Assembly: GCF_000235885.1 (NCBI RefSeq)
Contig: NZ_JH379474.1
Span: 1 to 64,000 of the forward strand
Length of the DNA stretch: 64,000 nt
Source of the DNA: Leyella stercorea DSM 18206
GTDB taxonomy: Bacteria > Bacteroidota > Bacteroidia > Bacteroidales > Bacteroidaceae
Direction: 5' to 3'
Shown here: positions 105 through 58,248 of the stretch, in pieces
Layout of the letters: each line of letters opens with the position of its first letter
Position numbering within the stretch: the stretch's first letter is position 1
The notes under the pieces: generated by a model
What the model saw: only the letters and a program-made list of their open reading frames with translations
What the model was told of the DNA's origin: nothing
The model's database searches: none
Program-made: the position numbers and the translations under genes

Positions 105-1133
105 TTAGTACTGACGCAAAGCAGAAAGCAACTCGTTATTTTCTGGTTTTGCACCAATTGTTATGCGCAGACAATTCTCACACAAAGGCATATCTGCACA
201 ATTTTTAACTACGATTCCCTTATCTAACAGATATTTATATACAGCTTGAGCGTCTTCGAACTTCACAAGCAAAAAGTTTGTTTCTGAAGGATATACCTGA
301 ACACATATAGACAAATCCATAAAGGCAGAAATCATACGCTGGCGTTCAAGGATGATGAAGCGTACACGCTTCTCAGCTTCAAAAGTATCGCGCAATTGAT
401 CTATAGCCACCTTTTGTGACAATGAATTCAAACCAAACGGCAACGCCACCCTATTCAACATATTCACGAGTTCGCTACTTGCATAAAGCATAGCAACGCC
501 AATAGCGGCACATCCCCATGAATTATCCATTGTATTCAAGACAACAAGATTATCAAACTTTCCTAACCGTGTACGCCATGATAACTGACTACTAAAGTCA
601 ACATACGATTCGTCTACAACAACTATTCCGTCGAACATCTCTAACAGTACTTCAACCTCTGCAGGATTTGCAGCAATACCTGTCGGTGTATTCGGTGAAC
701 AAAGCCAAATAAGTTTTGTCTTCTCATCACATTGCTCCAATACTCGATCAGCATTCAATTGAAAATCGGCATCCAAAAGTACACTTCTATTCTCAACACA
801 ATTCAACTCTGCCATCGTCCTATATACATCATACGTAGGCTCAACAATCACAACATTATCAACACCTGGCGTACAGAAGCAACGATACATGGAATCCACC
901 AAAGCATAACGCCCATTTGCAATAAACACATTCGCAGTTTGAACATTCTTAATTTTAGCTATTGACGCCTTCAATACAGCCATCGAAGAGTCTGGATAGC
1001 GATTATATGGTGAATTATATGGGTTCTCGTCTCTATCGAGCCATACACACGATTCTGTACGCACCCGACTATCATTGTCTGAGACTTGCATATTCAACAC
1101 ATTTGTACGTACCAATTCCTTTAATGGTTTCAT
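105..1133 (-). CDS. HisC-family (histidinol-phosphate aminotransferase fold) protein lacking the PLP lysine
   Basis: A 342-aa fold-type I aminotransferase relative that aligns along its length with HisC. Kept: the PTY motif, CSPNTPTG (the Asn that contacts PLP), VVDESYVDF (Asp and Tyr) and the C-terminal LRITIG Arg that binds substrate carboxylate. Changed: the segment that is T-x-SKA-x-G-x-AG-x-R in HisC reads NTMDNSWGCAAIG, so the Schiff-base Lys is Asn204 (codon at 522-524) and the phosphate-binding Arg is Gly212. The ADE motif near the PLP phosphate reads RYA. The reading frame is intact. By family knowledge it cannot form the internal aldimine, so normal transaminase activity is unlikely. 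I infer a pseudoenzyme or a repurposed paralogue. The start at 1133 is chosen because a longer frame to 1253 runs through the promoter and into the divergent gene. No other his gene is nearby. Confidence 0.8.
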   Translation of the reverse strand: MKPLKELVRTNVLNMQVSDNDSRVRTESCVWLDRDENPYNSPYNRYPDSSMAVLKASIAKIKNVQTANVFIANGRYALVDSMYRCFCTPGVDNVVIVEPTYDVYRTMAELNCVENRSVLLDADFQLNADRVLEQCDEKTKLIWLCSPNTPTGIAANPAEVEVLLEMFDGIVVVDESYVDFSSQLSWRTRLGKFDNLVVLNTMDNSWGCAAIGVAMLYASSELVNMLNRVALPFGLNSLSQKVAIDQLRDTFEAEKRVRFIILERQRMISAFMDLSICVQVYPSETNFLLVKFEDAQAVYKYLLDKGIVVKNCADMPLCENCLRITIGAKPENNELLSALRQY

Positions 1134-1172: not shown

Positions 1173-1203
1173 CAAAAGTAAGTTATTTTTAGGTATTATG
1201 CAA
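1173..1203 (-). promoter_or_regulatory. Promoter of the HisC-like gene
   Basis: On the minus strand TACTTTTG (1180-1173) fits the Bacteroidota -7 consensus TAnnTTTG, with a TTG (1203-1201) exactly 20 nt upstream. It lies about 40 nt before the chosen start at 1133 and supports that start over the longer frame. Confidence 0.7.
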
Positions 1204-1243: not shown

Positions 1244-2446
1244 ATGCAGGCAAAATTAATCGTCACCCTTCTTTTTATATTAAGCATTAGTGCTTGTACT
1301 GAAAGACAACAATCCACGCAAACCCCATGGGGAGACACATTCGGCACAGACACTGTATCATCGAACGCTTTCTCGCTCAGAGATATTCTGGAAAGCGGCG
1401 AAATGGTCGTTTTAACAATAAGCGGCCCTAATACTTATTACGAATACAGAGGCAAACAAATGGGTACACAATATCTTCTATGCGAGAAATTCGCACAGAA
1501 AATCGGTGTATCGCTACGTGTGGAAGTTTGCAAAAGCATAGATGAAATGATCAAAAAATTCAACGCAGGCGATGCAGATATTATTGTATATCAGATACCG
1601 ACATCCACAAAAGGCACAATACCATGTGGCTATAGTACAAACAACGGAAAGTTAGCATGGGCGGTGAGGACTGACAACACCGAATTGGCAGACAGCCTAA
1701 GGAGTTGGTATAAGCCAGAAATAGCAGAAAGTGTAAAACGGGAAGAGAAAGCACTTTTCTCTACACAAAGCATTCATCGTCGTGTATATGCCCCAATGCT
1801 GAACACACAAGCAGGCATTATCTCTAACTATGACCACCTTTTCAAGCGTTACGCACCAATTGCAAGATGGGACTGGCGTCTTCTTGCAGCCCAATGCTAC
1901 CAAGAGTCGTGTTTCGACCCGAAGGCTTATTCGTGGGCAGGCGCAAAAGGACTGATGCAGATTATGCCCGAAACAGCGAAACACCTTGGACTTGCAGAGA
2001 GTGACGTGTATGAACCAGATCTAAACATTTATGCAGCAGCGCGTTACATCAACGAGTTAAACACACGCTTTACGGACATACGAAACCCTGAAGAGCGCAA
2101 ATTCTTCATCCTTGCGAGTTACAATGGTGGCTTTTTCCATATACGTGATGCCATGGCGTTGGCAAAAAAGAACGGCAAAAACCCACGCAAATGGATACAC
2201 GTAGCTGAATATGTACTCAAGCTCAGCACTCCGGAATACTATAATGACCCTGTTGTAAAATACGGATATATGCGTGGTAGCGAGACTGCCAACTACGTTA
2301 GTGCCATATATAGCCGCTGGCAGAAGTATCGAGGCGTCAGAAATGCATCGTCATTAGCCCCAACCGATGATGTTCCAACCGTTTATGAGCCACACAAGGC
2401 AAGTAAGAAGCACCGTTTCAGACTCAAAAACGTTAAAGATAATTAA
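1244..2446 (+). CDS. MltF-like lipoprotein lytic murein transglycosylase
   Basis: A 400-aa protein predicted to cleave peptidoglycan glycan strands with formation of 1,6-anhydro-MurNAc. It starts with a lipoprotein signal ending in SISAC (Cys18), so the mature protein is probably anchored in a membrane facing the periplasm. Residues about 50-150 resemble a shortened solute-binding (SBP_bac_3) domain. Residues about 205-360 are an SLT domain with catalytic Glu in QESCFDP, then GAKGLMQIMPETA and ASYNGG. This is the MltF order, but the solute-binding part is shorter than in E. coli MltF, where it covers about 240 residues. The C-terminus is basic (SKKHRFRLKNVK). The gene appears monocistronic, followed by the rpsA promoter. 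Confidence 0.85.
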   Translation: MQAKLIVTLLFILSISACTERQQSTQTPWGDTFGTDTVSSNAFSLRDILESGEMVVLTISGPNTYYEYRGKQMGTQYLLCEKFAQKIGVSLRVEVCKSIDEMIKKFNAGDADIIVYQIPTSTKGTIPCGYSTNNGKLAWAVRTDNTELADSLRSWYKPEIAESVKREEKALFSTQSIHRRVYAPMLNTQAGIISNYDHLFKRYAPIARWDWRLLAAQCYQESCFDPKAYSWAGAKGLMQIMPETAKHLGLAESDVYEPDLNIYAAARYINELNTRFTDIRNPEERKFFILASYNGGFFHIRDAMALAKKNGKNPRKWIHVAEYVLKLSTPEYYNDPVVKYGYMRGSETANYVSAIYSRWQKYRGVRNASSLAPTDDVPTVYEPHKASKKHRFRLKNVKDN

Positions 2447-48990: not shown

Positions 48991-50058
48991 CTATTGCTTG
49001 TTGATTACTTCCATCTGTTGACGTACCGACTCCTCATGAACGAGTTCGAATATATGCTTGACAAACTCCGAGTCCATACCGAACAGTTCGCCTTGTGCTC
49101 CACGCTTGTCTATTATCTCTTTGTATCGATTAGCCTGCAGAACTGTCATATTATGCTCTTTTTTATAGCAGCCTATCTTGCGACAGATGTTCATACGATT
49201 GGAGAGAAGTTCAACAAGATTGTTGTCGAGAGCATCTATCTGCTCACGCAAGCCGTGTATGCCTTCTATGTCAATATGTCCGTCGCGAATTGTAAGTTGC
49301 GACAATATATTATAGAGTTCGTCGGGCGTAACCTGTTGTGCAGCATCGCTCCACGCTTCGTTCGGAGAGCAATGCGTCTCCACAATCAAGCCATCGAAAC
49401 CAAGATCCATAGCCTGCTGACTAAGTGGAGCTATCAGGTTACGTCGACCACCAATATGACTGGGGTCGCAGATTATCGGCAACTCCGGTATGCGGCGGCG
49501 CAACTCTATAGGTATCTGCCACATCGGAGCATTGCGATATATCTTGTTGTCGTAACTCGAGAAGCCACGATGAATGGCAGCCAAGCGCTTGATGCCTGCC
49601 TGATTGAGACGTTCCATCGCTCCAATCCACAATTCGAGGTCTGGATTTATGGGATTCTTCACAAGTACGGGAATATCTACACCACTAAGCGAATCGGCAA
49701 GTGCCTGCATAGCGAAGGGATTGGCAGAGGTGCGTGCTCCTATCCAAATAATGTCGACACCATATTCCAACACAAGTTCTACATGCTCGGGGGTGGCAAC
49801 CTCTGTAGCCACAGACATTCCTGTTTCTTCCTTCACACGCTTCAGCCACGGCAATGCTTTCTCGCCGTGTCCTTCGAAACCGCCTGGTTTGGTACGGGGT
49901 TTCCAAACACCAGCACGATACACGTTACAACCAAGCGAAACGAGTTGTCGGGCAGTAGACATAACTTGTTCTTCTGTCTCTGCCGAACATGGACCAGCTA
50001 TAACAAAAGGACGCAGCCCACAGCCTTTTATATTTAGAGGGATTAAAGACAAATCCAT
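48991..50058 (-). CDS. Bifunctional 3-deoxy-7-phosphoheptulonate synthase/chorismate mutase
   Basis: 355 aa. Residues 1-255 are a KDSA-type (class I beta) DAHP synthase, with FVIAGPCSAETEEQV, KPRTKPGGFEGHGE, PVLVKNPINPDLELW and CDPSHIGGRR. Residues about 265-345 are a type II chorismate mutase (LREQIDALDNNLVELLSNRM, CRKIGCYKKEHN). It condenses PEP and erythrose 4-phosphate at the head of the shikimate pathway and converts chorismate to prephenate. In this family the mutase domain can give feedback control by prephenate. Other aro genes are absent here. Confidence 0.93.
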   Translation of the reverse strand: MDLSLIPLNIKGCGLRPFVIAGPCSAETEEQVMSTARQLVSLGCNVYRAGVWKPRTKPGGFEGHGEKALPWLKRVKEETGMSVATEVATPEHVELVLEYGVDIIWIGARTSANPFAMQALADSLSGVDIPVLVKNPINPDLELWIGAMERLNQAGIKRLAAIHRGFSSYDNKIYRNAPMWQIPIELRRRIPELPIICDPSHIGGRRNLIAPLSQQAMDLGFDGLIVETHCSPNEAWSDAAQQVTPDELYNILSQLTIRDGHIDIEGIHGLREQIDALDNNLVELLSNRMNICRKIGCYKKEHNMTVLQANRYKEIIDKRGAQGELFGMDSEFVKHIFELVHEESVRQQMEVINKQ

Positions 50059-53186: not shown

Positions 53187-53759
53187 ATGAAAGCACTCAT
53201 AGACAGAATTCTGAAAGATGGCAAATGCTACCCTGGTGGCATCCTCAAAGTAGACAAATTCATTAATCACCAGATGGATCCTAACTTAATGAAGGACATC
53301 GCCGTAGAGTTCATACGTCGCTTTGCAAGCACAAAGGTGAACAAGATTCTTACTATTGAGGCATCGGGCATTGCACCAGCTATAATGATGGGATTTCTGA
53401 TGAACCTTCCCGTAGTGTTTGCAAAGAAGAAAAAGCCTAACACGCTTGACAACATGCTTGCCACGAAGGTCACTTCGTTCACTAAGCAGCGCGACTACGA
53501 CGTGGTTATCTCACGCGATTATCTTTGCCCCGATGACCATGTCATATTCATCGACGATTTCCTTGCTTATGGCAACGCAGCAAAGGGTATCATCGACCTC
53601 TGCAAGCAGTCGGGAGCCACACTCGAGGGCATGGGATTCATTATCGAGAAAGCATTCCAGGACGGTGGACAATATCTGCGCGAACAAGGTGTGCGTGTAG
53701 AGTCGCTTGCTATAATCGAATCGCTTGAGAACTGCGAGATAAAGATTAAAAACGCATAA
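53187..53759 (+). CDS. xpt: Xanthine phosphoribosyltransferase
   Basis: A 190-aa type I PRTase that converts xanthine and PRPP to XMP. The PRPP-binding motif is [16 protein letters not shown], with [20 protein letters not shown] and [12 protein letters not shown] upstream. Size matches Bacillus Xpt (194). No purine riboswitch is visible upstream; a weak promoter-like pair (TTG 53106-53108, CGACTTTG 53128-53135) is possible. The TAA stop overlaps the next ATG by one base (TAATG). Confidence 0.92.
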
Positions 53760-54661
53760 TGAGGAACGACATCCAACTCCTCGAACTGCTCCTAAAAGAC
53801 CAATCGCTCAGTTTGCCCAATGAAAACACATATATTTCATGGGCAACTGACGATTATTGCGTCACTGACGAGATGGACGACAATAGCCCATTTGCGTTTA
53901 ACGCACAAATCACTCCTGAGTTAATCAGTAGCCACCCGGATCTTATACAACCACGTATAAAGAAGCAACCATCCATGCAGACTTCTCGCTCGAAGTCGCG
54001 TGCTGAAGTGTTCACTCCTGCATGGATATGTAATGCACAGAACAACCTTATCGACGAACAATGGTTTGGCAGAAAAGATGTATTCAATACCGAATATATA
54101 AATGAGGAAGGCGAACACAGATGGCTAACATCCAAGCCACCTATCGTGTTTCCGGCAAAACGCTCATGGATGTCGTACGTGAGGGCAAGACGCATGGAGA
54201 TAACTTGCGGAGAAGGGCCGTATCTTATTTCGCGCTATGATGCCACCACTGGTCGACTAATTCCTATCAGCGAACGTATTGGTATGTTGGACCGCAAGTT
54301 TCGCATAATAAACGAGAATACCCCTTCCGAGCCGACAAAGGCTAACAAACGTCAATGGATACGCAAAGCTTACCAAGCACTTCAGTCGATATATGGCTTC
54401 GACAGTCAGGGCGACAACGTCTTTCTTACACGTGAGTCACTATTCCTTTCGTTCTGTGAATACTACACCGAACGTTGGCATCGACACCCACACCGCGATG
54501 CCGTATTGAAGGCTGCAGAAATCATTTCGTGGAACATTTGGCAAATGGATGGACTGAACTTCAACGTTCCCAACTCCGACCATTACGCCATAATCATGGA
54601 ATGGCACAATACCGAACCACTGAGTGGCAAGAAAATGACTTACAAAGACATTATGAAATAG
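53759..54661 (+). CDS. AEVFTP protein of a helicase-methylase pair (restriction-like accessory subunit)
   Basis: A 300-aa soluble protein starting on the last base of the xpt stop codon. Residues about 78-110 read RSKSRAEVFTPAWICNAQNN then LIDEQWFGRKDVF. The EVFTP element usually opens the N6-adenine methylase fold, but no SAM motif I or NPPY follows. The C-terminal part has a conserved-looking core (IYGFDSQGDNVFLTRESL; AAEIISWNIWQMDGLNF). Related proteins are often labelled restriction endonuclease subunit M next to a large Eco57I-type gene, as here. Activity is unknown; a specificity or partner subunit for the 54703-58248 product is the simplest inference. I see no PD-(D/E)XK or HNH motif. 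Confidence 0.65.
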   Translation: MRNDIQLLELLLKDQSLSLPNENTYISWATDDYCVTDEMDDNSPFAFNAQITPELISSHPDLIQPRIKKQPSMQTSRSKSRAEVFTPAWICNAQNNLIDEQWFGRKDVFNTEYINEEGEHRWLTSKPPIVFPAKRSWMSYVRARRMEITCGEGPYLISRYDATTGRLIPISERIGMLDRKFRIINENTPSEPTKANKRQWIRKAYQALQSIYGFDSQGDNVFLTRESLFLSFCEYYTERWHRHPHRDAVLKAAEIISWNIWQMDGLNFNVPNSDHYAIIMEWHNTEPLSGKKMTYKDIMK

Positions 54662-54702
54662 GCTTACGACTATAATAGTCACAACTAAAATACAAAACAA
54701 GA

Positions 54703-57700
54703 ATGATATCAACAGAAAACATAGTATTCCGAACCGAACAAGAAGAAGCTATCAACTTCACCGTGACGACACTAAAACGCTCACGTAAGGTACTTTGGAA
54801 TGCAAAGATGCGCTTCGGTAAAACGCTTTGCGCCATCGAAGCAGCACATCGTCTTGGGTACAGACGCACACTCGTGCTCACTCATCGCCCTGCTGTGCGA
54901 CAAGAGTGGTTTGACTCTATTGAAAAACTGCAGCTTGAAGGCTGGCTGTACGGCAGCAAGACAACATCTGCTATGCCCGAAGAGGAACGCAAACGTCGCG
55001 GAGCGTCGTTTGCCGAACTTGAAGACATAGCCAAAGACCCTGCAACCCACTACGTCTATTTCGCATCAATGCAGGACTTACGCTCTTCAAAGCGCGTGAA
55101 CCAGCAGAAAGGTATTGTGAAGAACGATGATGTATTCTCTGCAAAGTGGGATTTTCTTATTGTTGACGAAGCACACGAGGGTATCACAACACGCCTTGGC
55201 AACGACGTTATCGCCGAACTACAGAAACGCCGTAGTCTGCGCACGCTCTATCTCTCGGGCACACCCTACAGCATCCGCCAGACCTTCGACACCACAGACG
55301 TGTACAACTGGGACTATTGCATGGAGCAACGTGCAAAGGAGCAGTGGGATATCTCTAACAGCGGTGCAGCCAACCCGTATGCAAATATGGCACGTATGAA
55401 CATCGTCACTTATAATCTGCGCAACACCTTCGCACCTTATTTCCTTACAGACAACGAAGGCTTTAACTTTTCCGAGTTCTTTCGTGTTGACGAGGCGCAG
55501 ACGTGCTTTGTGCACGAAGCCGACGTAAGAAAATTCGTAAACCTTCTCGCAACCGCTCCGCTGTATCCATTCGCCGATGAAGCGATGGGCCAATCGTTAT
55601 GCCATACTCTTTGGTATGTGCCTGGTGTCAACGCGGCTCATTGTCTTGCACAGATACTCGCTGAGCCAACTGCAGATAATCCGTTCCGTAACTATAAGGT
55701 CGTAAATGTTGCCGGTGATAGCGTTTCTTCTCAAACATCTCCTCTTGAGGAGGTAAGAACCGCTATCAGCACTAATGAACGCACAATAACATTATCGTGC
55801 GGACGACTCACTACTGGTGTCTCTGTACCAGAATGGACTGCCGTATTCATGCTCGCTGGCTCTGCCGACACTGGTTGCGCTCATTACTTCCAGACAATCT
55901 TCCGCTGCCAGAGTCCGTATCGCGAGGGCATAAAAGCAGAGTGTTACACATTCGACTTCTCACCGACACGAACACTCACCGCCATCGACCAATATATCAG
56001 CAACAATCTTGCATCTACTGAGCACGAAGCACGTGTGCAGAAGCTCACTGAATTCCTGCACTACTGCCCTACTATCGTTATCGATGGTGGCAAACGCAAC
56101 CGAATGGACACGGATACATTCATCCGACACATCAACACCTCTTACTCTACAAGCCTCATCCGCAATGGTTTCCACGGCGATTGTCTGTACACCGACCTGA
56201 ACAATCTCGGCAAAAACGACCTCCGTCTGCTCGACGAGGTGGCAGAAGCTATGGCTAATGCAGTACTTGAAGAGCGTCGTCAGAGGAATAACGACATACA
56301 GTCTGCCAAGAAACAGACGAAGAAAGCAAAAGACAAGACGGCTGAAGATGCGGCAAAGCAGAATGACATTCCTAACACGCAGGCAAGAGAAAATGCAGGC
56401 ATAACTCGCCTCACACCGCGTCAGCGTGCCATTGCCATACTCAGTCAGATATCCACTCGCTTCCCTATCATGATATATGGCACGGTGGATAATATCGAAG
56501 GATTGACTATCGACTCATTCTTGCGCAACATCGATGCAGAGTCGTGGCGTCATTTCATGCCACGTGGCATCACCATTCAGCTGTTCAAGCGCCTTAAGCA
56601 TCTCTATCGCGAGGACATCTTTGTAGCAACAGCCAAGGCTATTGTTGCACGCTTGCGTCATGCCGATACACTTCCCCCAGACAACCGCATTGCTGAGATT
56701 GCGAGCATCCTCTCCGACTTCTCTTACCCAGATCGCGAAACTATCCTCACACCATGGAATGTCGTAAATCGTCATCTCTCTGACACACTCGGTGGCTACT
56801 GCTTCTTTGACGATAAGTTTACGAAGCCACTTGCTCAACCACGCTTTGTTTACAACGAAGGCGTGACCAACCGCACGCTGATGAACCCCAACGCACAGAT
56901 ACTCGACATCTGCTCAAAAACTGGTCTTTACTCGCTTTACGTAGCTTATTCTTTATATAAGGTGCGCAGCAGTCAGTCGCAAGGTCTGTTCGACATGCTG
57001 TCCGACCAAGAGTCGTGCTCGATGTGGAAGGAAATCGTTGAGCATAACATCTTTGCTGTCTGCAAGACTGCTATGGCAGCCAGCATAACACGCCGCACTC
57101 TCGTTGGCTTCGATAGCAATGTACGACCAAACATACTCACCATACCCGACCTCAACAGTCAGGTAATTGTGTACAAAGCGAAGCTCGCAAGCACCATCAG
57201 CGACCCACAAAACTATCCCAATTTAAGCACCAATCAGCAAATGAAATTCGACGCAATCATTGGCAATCCACCATATCAGATGAACATCGGTGAGAAGAAA
57301 GACAACTACGGCATACCTCTCTACAACCAATTTGTAGATATCGCCCGTCAGATGCGCCCACAATTCATCACAATGATTACCCCTTCACGATGGTTCACGG
57401 GCGGACGCGGACTCGATCAGTTCCGTCAATCAATGCTTGGCGACACACGCATACGCGCCATCTTCGACTATGTAGACTCAAAGGACTGCTTCCCTACCGT
57501 AGACATCTCCGGAGGCGTAAGCTATTTCCTGTGGGACGCGAAGCACAAGACAACCTGCCAGTTTACGAACCACTTTGGTGGCAACGCCAACACACTGCCT
57601 CGCAAACTCGACGAATTCAACATCTTCGTGCGCAACAATGGTGCGCTCTCGCTCATTCACAAGGTGAAAGCAATGTCGAAGACCATGCTCAACGCGCAGA

Positions 57701-58248
57701 TTAGTCCGCAGACTCCGTTCGGCTTCGTTTCTACATATCGTGGCACTACTCAGCCTGATGCTGACCCTACAGCCGTCATGCTGAAGTCGTCGGGCGAACC
57801 ATCTTACGTTCTGCGTGATGATATCAAGAAAAACCAGCAGTGGGTTGACCTCCATAAGGTTATATTCTCGAAGGCTACATGCGAACATGCCGGTACCCCC
57901 GACCGCAACGGACAGTACCGCGTGCTCTCCGCCCTCACCATACTGCAACCGCAATGTGTCTGCACGCAGAGCTACCTCGTTGCAGGTGCTTATCCTACAG
58001 CGCAGGAGGCAGAGAACTTGCTCACCTATCTGAAGACCAAGTTTGTACGCTACCTCATCTTGCAGACCATCACTTCGCAGGACCTCTCGCCGGAGAAGTT
58101 CATGTTTGTGCCGCTGCAGGACTTCACAGCTGCATCAGATATAAATTGGAGTGCTGCCATTGAGGAAATAGACTCGCAACTCTACGAAAAATATGGTGTG
58201 GATGAGGCGGAGAGAAGCCTTATAGAAAACACTATTAAGGAGATGTAA
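54703..58248 (+). CDS. SF2 helicase fused to an Eco57I-like adenine methyltransferase
   Basis: 1181 aa. N-terminal SF2/ResIII translocase: Walker A AKMRFGKT (Lys40), FLIVDEAHEG (DEAH at 155-158), LYLSGTPYS, and motif VI-like HYFQTIFRCQSPYR near residue 395. A Lys/Gln-rich linker at about 525-565. C-terminal N6-adenine methylase: an ILTPWNVVNRHLSDTLGGY segment, motif I ILDICSKTGLYSLYVA (Asp735), catalytic IIGNPPYQM (NPPY 855-858), then ITPSRWFTGGRG and a tail that may hold target recognition. I find no nuclease motif, unlike type ISP enzymes, which begin with an Mrr-type nuclease. Either cleavage comes from another protein or this is a modification or defence system with another outcome. It is 41 nt after the AEVFTP gene. 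Confidence 0.8.
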   Translation: MISTENIVFRTEQEEAINFTVTTLKRSRKVLWNAKMRFGKTLCAIEAAHRLGYRRTLVLTHRPAVRQEWFDSIEKLQLEGWLYGSKTTSAMPEEERKRRGASFAELEDIAKDPATHYVYFASMQDLRSSKRVNQQKGIVKNDDVFSAKWDFLIVDEAHEGITTRLGNDVIAELQKRRSLRTLYLSGTPYSIRQTFDTTDVYNWDYCMEQRAKEQWDISNSGAANPYANMARMNIVTYNLRNTFAPYFLTDNEGFNFSEFFRVDEAQTCFVHEADVRKFVNLLATAPLYPFADEAMGQSLCHTLWYVPGVNAAHCLAQILAEPTADNPFRNYKVVNVAGDSVSSQTSPLEEVRTAISTNERTITLSCGRLTTGVSVPEWTAVFMLAGSADTGCAHYFQTIFRCQSPYREGIKAECYTFDFSPTRTLTAIDQYISNNLASTEHEARVQKLTEFLHYCPTIVIDGGKRNRMDTDTFIRHINTSYSTSLIRNGFHGDCLYTDLNNLGKNDLRLLDEVAEAMANAVLEERRQRNNDIQSAKKQTKKAKDKTAEDAAKQNDIPNTQARENAGITRLTPRQRAIAILSQISTRFPIMIYGTVDNIEGLTIDSFLRNIDAESWRHFMPRGITIQLFKRLKHLYREDIFVATAKAIVARLRHADTLPPDNRIAEIASILSDFSYPDRETILTPWNVVNRHLSDTLGGYCFFDDKFTKPLAQPRFVYNEGVTNRTLMNPNAQILDICSKTGLYSLYVAYSLYKVRSSQSQGLFDMLSDQESCSMWKEIVEHNIFAVCKTAMAASITRRTLVGFDSNVRPNILTIPDLNSQVIVYKAKLASTISDPQNYPNLSTNQQMKFDAIIGNPPYQMNIGEKKDNYGIPLYNQFVDIARQMRPQFITMITPSRWFTGGRGLDQFRQSMLGDTRIRAIFDYVDSKDCFPTVDISGGVSYFLWDAKHKTTCQFTNHFGGNANTLPRKLDEFNIFVRNNGALSLIHKVKAMSKTMLNAQISPQTPFGFVSTYRGTTQPDADPTAVMLKSSGEPSYVLRDDIKKNQQWVDLHKVIFSKATCEHAGTPDRNGQYRVLSALTILQPQCVCTQSYLVAGAYPTAQEAENLLTYLKTKFVRYLILQTITSQDLSPEKFMFVPLQDFTAASDINWSAAIEEIDSQLYEKYGVDEAERSLIENTIKEM

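Follow-up and report, generated by a model that had tools for sequence, protein, structure and literature searches.

A HisC-derived protein lacking the PLP lysine, a candidate pseudoenzyme, in Leyella stercorea DSM 18206 and its relatives

Results

The hisC-like gene and its active site

The window, by which is meant the whole stretch of 64,000 nucleotides analysed here (Leyella stercorea DSM 18206, contig NZ_JH379474.1, positions 1 to 64,000), starts with the first base of its contig. The first gene in it is a hisC-like open reading frame on the minus strand (1133 to 105), which runs uninterrupted for 342 amino acids from an ATG at 1133-1131 to a stop codon at 107-105; the region on its 3' side is unassembled. 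The features of the locus are given below, with the residues of the window protein mapped onto PDB 1fg3, presumably the HisC of E. coli, by alignment to the sequence of that HisC structure.

105..1133, minus strand: orphan hisC-like gene, PLP lysine absent, 342 aa (frame and translation, Pfam and TIGR01141 profiles, predicted fold)
165..167, minus strand: codon 323, Arg kept (Arg335), in 16 of 17 lysine-less proteins (alignment)
498..500, minus strand: codon 212, GGC, Gly replacing the PLP-phosphate Arg (Arg222) (alignment)
522..524, minus strand: codon 204, AAT, Asn at the place of the Lys found in reference HisC (Lys214 of 1fg3) (alignment)
525..527, minus strand: codon 203, Asp replacing the PLP-phosphate Ser (Ser213) (alignment)
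612..614, minus strand: codon 174, PLP-ring Asp kept (Asp184), in 17 of 17 lysine-less proteins (alignment)
690..692, minus strand: codon 148, PLP-ring Asn kept (Asn157), in 17 of 17 lysine-less proteins (alignment)
903..911, minus strand: codons 75-77, Arg-Tyr-Ala replacing Ser-Asp-Glu (Ala84-Asp85-Glu86 in 1fg3) (alignment)
1173..1180, minus strand: TACTTTTG, resembling a Bacteroidetes -7 promoter element (near-identical in the related genome G410)
1201..1203, minus strand: TTG, which may be the upstream part of this promoter (upstream of TACTTTTG)
1244..2446, plus strand: divergent neighbour with a transglycosylase SLT domain, to which we give the presumed name mltF; it marks the old his locus, with hisGDC opposite mltF (domain)

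The window protein matches the Pfam family Aminotransferase class I/II (PF00155) with 146.8 bits against a cut-off of 19.7, and reaches 273.6 bits with TIGR01141, the NCBI model for HisC, just below the cut-off of 276.55. Its predicted structure is confident (pLDDT 90.8, pTM 0.89) and of the class I/II fold, the best Foldseek match being HisC 1fg3 (E 1.2e-32) and the best 50 matches all being HisC and related PLP enzymes.

In HisC the cofactor is held by a Schiff-base lysine, by a cup around the PLP phosphate and by residues in contact with the PLP ring. The original prediction was that this protein had lost the PLP lysine (Asn204) in an intact frame, that the phosphate Arg had become Gly212 and the ADE motif had been altered, and that the PLP-contacting Asn, Asp and Tyr and the carboxylate-binding Arg remained. 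The 342-codon frame and the alignment to 1fg3 bear out each of these points, the retained residues being Asn148, Asp174, Tyr177 and Arg323. The phosphate cup (equivalents of Ser213, Arg222 and Ala84-Asp85) is replaced by Asp203, Gly212 and Arg75-Tyr76, and a change that the prediction did not contain is Lys310 at the position of Arg322. Tyr177 corresponds to Tyr187 of 1fg3, and further residues kept are Tyr101 (Tyr110) and Tyr46 (Tyr55). The protein retains 6 of the 13 active-site positions listed, and 97 of the 145 positions that are conserved at 95% or more in 119 reference rows.

The histidine pathway in the genome

The genome (3.1 Mb, 147 contigs) is 99.86% complete. Searched for HisC, it gave, besides the window gene, two remote matches that cover only part of the length at 27% identity, hence no second HisC, and a separate working HisC elsewhere in this genome can be set aside. 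HisD is also absent in a search whose control was positive in 13 of 14 genomes. No true HisA/HisF was found: the single weak and partial match (E 1.3e-4) amounts with its neighbours to 24 bits, barely over the Pfam cut-off of 23.6, and similar weak matches occur in other genomes, while matches taken as true score 215-275 bits and were present in 7 of the 43 genomes searched. The original prediction had expected the true hisC at another place in the genome; instead the pathway itself seems to be gone, as judged from HisD and HisA/HisF, the pathway genes to which the search was directed besides HisC. As these are missing, L. stercorea DSM 18206 is predicted to need histidine, i.e. to be a histidine auxotroph which carries one orphan gene of the pathway.

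Gene order and promoter

The hisC-hisD-hisG genes are divergent from mltF in three of the five operonic genomes examined (G475, G457 and G431, with HisG confirmed in G475), and were not found opposite mltF in the parts of G428 and G429 that were seen. In the window and in G004, G016, G479, G046, G076, G410, G276, G438, G113, G232, G440 and G411, with 34 flanks compared, hisC itself is directly divergent from mltF. A second arrangement, hisC beside a trmH-like gene, is found in G010, G402, G075, G334, G124, G422, G430 and others; the loci of G029 and G107 are cut off by the edge of a contig, and G163, G191, G226, G502, G531 and G514 fit neither arrangement. From the main pattern of this synteny we infer that hisG and hisD were deleted and hisC was left in place. 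None of the neighbours at the loci viewed names a function, mltF and trmH merely marking the old locus. A protein of 401-402 amino acids with a like start lies within three to four frames of hisC in ten trmH-type genomes (nine lysine-keeping ones and G107), and is a Pfam aminotransferase class I/II in both cases tested (L120:3087-4292 and L124:224-1432).

The likely nearest relative among those sampled is G410, which shares with the window the mltF-rpsA-rho genes beside the gene, the Ser203 to Asp change, the loss of Arg212 and a near-identical promoter. The two HisC proteins are 43% identical; they are joined in one tree (support 89) and are not joined in the mixture-model tree. The consensus TAnnTTTG, which we take to be that of the Bacteroidetes -7 promoter element, is resembled by TACTTTTG. 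The clean promoter of the original prediction stands in so far as TTG ... TACTTTTG recurs nearly unaltered upstream of the G410 gene despite the 43% protein identity, and is weakened in that 29% of shuffles of this AT-rich stretch are expected to contain one or more such matches. Across the orphan genes, TAnnTTTG occurs within 220 bases upstream in 14 of 31, against 2.4 expected from shuffles; 12 of the 14 lysine-keeping orphans, those beside the trmH-like gene, are among the 17 that lack it.

Elsewhere in the window, a protein of 300 aa with a type II methyltransferase match (PDLC03390, E 5.2e-87; no Pfam family) is followed by one of 1181 aa with ResIII and Eco57I methylase domains (53759-58248), probably a restriction-modification pair, and a DAHP synthase fused to chorismate mutase is encoded on the minus strand at 48991-50058.

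HisC in genomes with and without HisD

Among the first 53 relatives, three more lysine-less proteins were found (with Asn, Thr and His), all in genomes without detected HisD. HisD was detected in 309 of the 398 genomes of the genus (130 of 175 among those of good quality), the remaining 89 including incomplete assemblies. Eighty of these 89 were searched with a profile built from five orphan HisC (threshold E 1e-40), nine of low completeness or fragmented being left out. Twenty-eight matched, and after a remote homologue (G073, 29% identity) had been set aside, 27 genomes with a HisC-type gene remained. Restricted to good quality, 20 of 45 HisD-less genomes keep such a gene and 25 have no match at E 1e-40, so that the gene is dispensable. 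The lysine is missing in 12 of the 20 (G000, G010, G016, G029, G046, G076, G163, G191, G232, G276, G402 and G410) and is kept in eight (G004, G075, G113, G124, G132, G146, G334 and G371); a strong HisA/HisF match is lacking in all 20. The 12 of 20 stand against 0 of 162 distinct HisC from genomes or loci with HisD, in all of which the lysine is present. These control rows were picked for HisD and comprise 47 of the first 53 relatives (HisD in the genome), 108 with HisD on the fetched stretch and 16 HisD-linked copies of other genera, from which the 162 distinct proteins result. Rows without HisD on the fetched stretch are divided, 18 of 39 having the lysine and 21 lacking it. The exceptions to the rule that HisD means lysine are second copies, in G514 of another genus and perhaps in G107.

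Further genes came from a search of 165 genomes with a completeness of 97% or more, lysine-less ones in G422, G438, G440, G479, G424 and G425 and lysine-keeping ones in G430, G432, G433, G434, G447 and G451, HisD not being found in either set; for genomes from this search only, HisD was in part searched and otherwise judged from neighbouring genes (G441 by neighbours), and the HisA/HisF search covered the added genomes other than G424 and G425. The HisC frame was parsed in all but 7 of 81 loci in one set and all but 2 of 36 in another. Five lysine-keeping genomes that are 65-86% complete (G001, G388, G280, G382 and G411) were excluded from the group counts; of these, G001 does carry HisA/HisF. 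A protein scan of named genomes for close relatives matched six stretches, none of which codes for a relative.

Position 204 is occupied in the 25 lysine-less rows by Asn (7), His (5), Leu (4), Thr (3), Tyr (2), Arg (2), Ser (1) and Gln (1); the rows represent 24 distinct genes, G107 included, with L149/G441 and L175/G427 taken as the same organisms. The proteins are 36-51% identical to that of the window. Conservation of Asn204 and Gly212 among orthologues, proposed as a check in the original prediction, is thus not what is seen: position 204 varies, and 11 of 17 lysine-less proteins retain Arg212. A strain-specific oddity or a base or sequencing error is rejected by lysine-less orthologues with intact frames in other species.

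Some individual cases are worth recording. Xylanibacter rarus (L149; G441 = L259) has Asn at 204, normal residues at the other printed motifs and hisC beside mltF, and is perhaps the youngest lysine loss. G107 (71% complete, no HisD found) is an ambiguous case: it has HisA/HisF, a Thr-type HisC and a partial Lys-type HisC, the latter on the same contig as HisA/HisF (L081, L252). One clade of lysine-keeping orphan HisC (L075, L076, L077, L079, L080, L127 and L130-L134) shares the changes Tyr101 to Cys, Asp76 to Thr and Asn149 to Thr or Ser, an altered active site that may indicate a changed enzyme.

Repeated loss of the lysine

In a mixture-model tree from which column 204 was omitted, the lysine state changes at least five times, of which strongly supported branches force only two; as branches are long in the fast-evolving group, to which the window belongs, the exact number of losses is uncertain. 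Grouping all 22 lysine-less rows as one clade is rejected on a quick tree (AU p 0.00305), and with it a single ancient lysine-less paralogue. Outside the genus, the lysine is also missing in two genomes of genus g35, G502 (Tyr) and G531 (Gln), HisD being found in neither. A third genome of g35, G514, has a Lys-type HisC beside HisD and elsewhere a second HisC with His at 204 (the two copies lie at L246:5980-6975 and L249:6007-7044). As both copies are carried by one genome, a lysine-less HisC need not be the relic of a lost pathway.

Selection on the lysine-less genes

Nei-Gojobori estimates of dN/dS between sister species that share the lost lysine are 0.26 for G046/G191 (Leu), 0.11 for G276/G438 (Arg), 0.13 for G029/G479 (Thr) and 0.06 for G010/G422 (Asn; synonymous sites saturated), and five further pairs in the Leu clade give 0.12-0.22. 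Among reference HisC pairs, the lowest 40 of 199 span 0.029 to 0.076. A codon model implemented in our own code for 28 genes, the deep branches of which are saturated, gave 0.064 for orphan branches, whether lysine-less or lysine-keeping, and 0.011 for those of the reference genes; constraint is weaker in the orphan and lysine-less genes than in working HisC. Fixing the lysine-less branches at a dN/dS of 1 costs a 2dlnL of 1299.5, and a value of 1 is also rejected in four sister pairs (2dlnL 16.9, 85.1, 40.9 and 187.8). The window gene is without a close relative and its dN/dS can be compared only to 1; fixing its branch at 1 gives a 2dlnL of 26.2, of which only the rejection of 1 is meaningful, the branch being at its length limit with saturated synonymous sites. 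With an unbroken frame and a rejected dN/dS of 1, the gene does not have the marks of a pseudogene.

When a reference gene was mutated neutrally, stop-free frames were left in 10 of 100 runs at 90% amino acid identity, in 4 of 100 at 80%, in 1 of 100 at 70% and in none of 100 at 60% or 52%. Consequently, if the window lysine was lost recently, the intact frame says little. None of the listed orphan genes has an internal stop codon, in a search that favours intact genes, and in the G232 protein the alignment ends after residue 305, as with a frameshift or an assembly error.

Conserved positions that survive

Of the 145 conserved positions, defined on the 119 reference rows, 13 are in the active-site list and 132 outside. 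Mean retention in 17 lysine-less proteins is 0.73 outside the list and 0.64 inside, or 0.69 inside without Lys204. Every one of the 17 has the pocket residues Asn148 and Asp174; of the others in the pocket, Arg323 is retained in 16, Tyr177 and Tyr46 in 15 each, Ser203 in 13, Arg212 in 11, Asp76 in seven, Arg310 in one and Lys204 in none. The ring end and the Arg335 equivalent are thus preserved, while the Schiff base is gone and the phosphate cup is partly eroded, most of all in the window protein. As 27 of the 145 positions are kept in all 17 proteins, the presence of two ring residues among them is a mild hint, and the pocket is not clearly singled out, either for change or for keeping. Arg310, Arg312 and Gly72 are among the conserved positions least retained. 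A further position of note is Ala176 (606-608, minus strand), which is Ser in 7 of 18 lysine-less groups, 0 of 172 other HisC rows and 0 of 16 lysine-keeping orphan rows, and which could be a by-product of faster evolution.

Discussion

The gene is most likely neither a sequencing error nor plain decay. The preference of the original prediction for a functional pseudoenzyme over random decay finds support in purifying selection, the intact frame, the confident fold and a promoter common to one relative. With moderate confidence, we regard the window gene as a HisC-derived pseudoenzyme maintained by selection, acting as a non-catalytic dimer that binds a ligand or a partner, in a role that predates the loss of the lysine. 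After deletion of hisG and hisD, hisC would have stayed at the old his locus and come to encode a protein incapable of transamination, in which normal holding of PLP is probably lost as well. Such a protein may work as a dimer, with a small ligand taken up by the half of the pocket that remains, or with a protein partner bound; its function may thus be one of binding or regulation. Non-catalytic binding is favoured because the fold and the ring end of the pocket are preserved although there is no common residue at position 204. A role older than the lysine loss, possibly present already in ordinary HisC, would explain why separate lineages have lost the lysine and kept the gene, and the same loss in separate lineages suggests such a role in the normal enzyme. 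A wider version of this, that HisC in this bacterial family also has a second role, one that does not depend on PLP and was there before the pathway was lost, after which the lysine was free to vanish several times, is put forward tentatively, and we hold it to be somewhat less probable than its opposite.

The relation to HisC itself is close: homology extends over nearly the whole length and the fold is shared (TIGR01141; PDB 1fg3/1gew), as are the ring-contact Asn, Asp and Tyr and the Arg335 equivalent. The window protein differs in lacking the Schiff-base lysine and the phosphate cup, in the replacement of Arg322 by Lys, in its score (273.6 vs 276.55) and in a genome without HisD and HisA/HisF.

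The strongest rival is slow decay, i.e. a useless but expressed protein, in which selection acts only against misfolding or toxicity until the gene is deleted. The constraint weaker than in reference HisC would be expected on this account, as would the poor retention of Arg310, Arg312 and Gly72, the 25 of 45 good-quality HisD-less genomes without a match and the likely frame damage in G232. It fits less well with the lack of internal stops (for which the search is partly responsible, as it favours intact genes), with proteins that have diverged to 36-51% identity with the window's and yet give sister-pair dN/dS of 0.06-0.26, and with the lysine-less copy that G514 has alongside a HisD-linked HisC. 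We consider slow decay unlikely.

A protein that has remained an enzyme, binding PMP or PLP without a Schiff base and performing other chemistry, appears improbable. Its precedent is the nucleotide-sugar 3-dehydratases ColD, E1 and SpnQ, which have an aminotransferase fold with the lysine replaced, the Lys of ColD/E1 being described in PMC8987622 as replaced by His. In favour of this reading, all 17 lysine-less proteins keep the ring-contact Asn and Asp, and 5 of 25 rows have His at 204. Theirs, however, is a fixed catalytic His, while position 204 here may be Asn (as in the window), His, Leu, Thr, Tyr, Arg, Ser or Gln, with no common catalytic residue, and in the window the phosphate cup is lost too. 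This variation also speaks against one constant substitute for the lysine that has taken on a new catalytic role, a reading that is rejected.

A dead subunit that pairs with a different aminotransferase, in the way of LCB1 and LCB2 of serine palmitoyltransferase, is very improbable. For it are the precedent of LCB1, a PLP-enzyme homologue described in PMC3794620 as without the PLP lysine and still functional, and the 401-402 aa neighbour that lies near hisC in ten trmH-type genomes (both proteins tested being aminotransferases). Against it, the partner of LCB1 is a catalytic homologue whereas the window genome has no second HisC, its two other matches being 27% identical over part of the length, and the neighbour is not seen at loci of the mltF type to which the window belongs (its other side being unassembled).

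The literature searched, on HisC or aminotransferase pseudoenzymes, on histidine auxotrophy with hisC in Prevotella/Bacteroidetes and on hisC moonlighting, listed no paper on a protein like this one; PMC9026213 scores 2097 gut genomes as having the full histidine pathway and 759 as lacking it, HisC being put in brackets. If these genes were annotated by the name of their family, such species would be credited with a histidine-pathway enzyme that is not expected to work. Pseudoenzymes are usually regarded as one old duplicate, whereas here it is mostly the single copy of a biosynthetic enzyme that is concerned, with repeated loss of the catalytic residue in one genus. If the proposed older role is real, the family would hold pseudoenzymes of differing age, from Xylanibacter rarus, where the lysine is replaced and the other motifs viewed are intact, to proteins 36% identical to that of the window. 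The repeated loss amounts to a natural replicate experiment, in which an enzyme becomes a non-enzyme in species lacking the remaining pathway and the protein is retained, and it hints at a hidden second function in a textbook enzyme.
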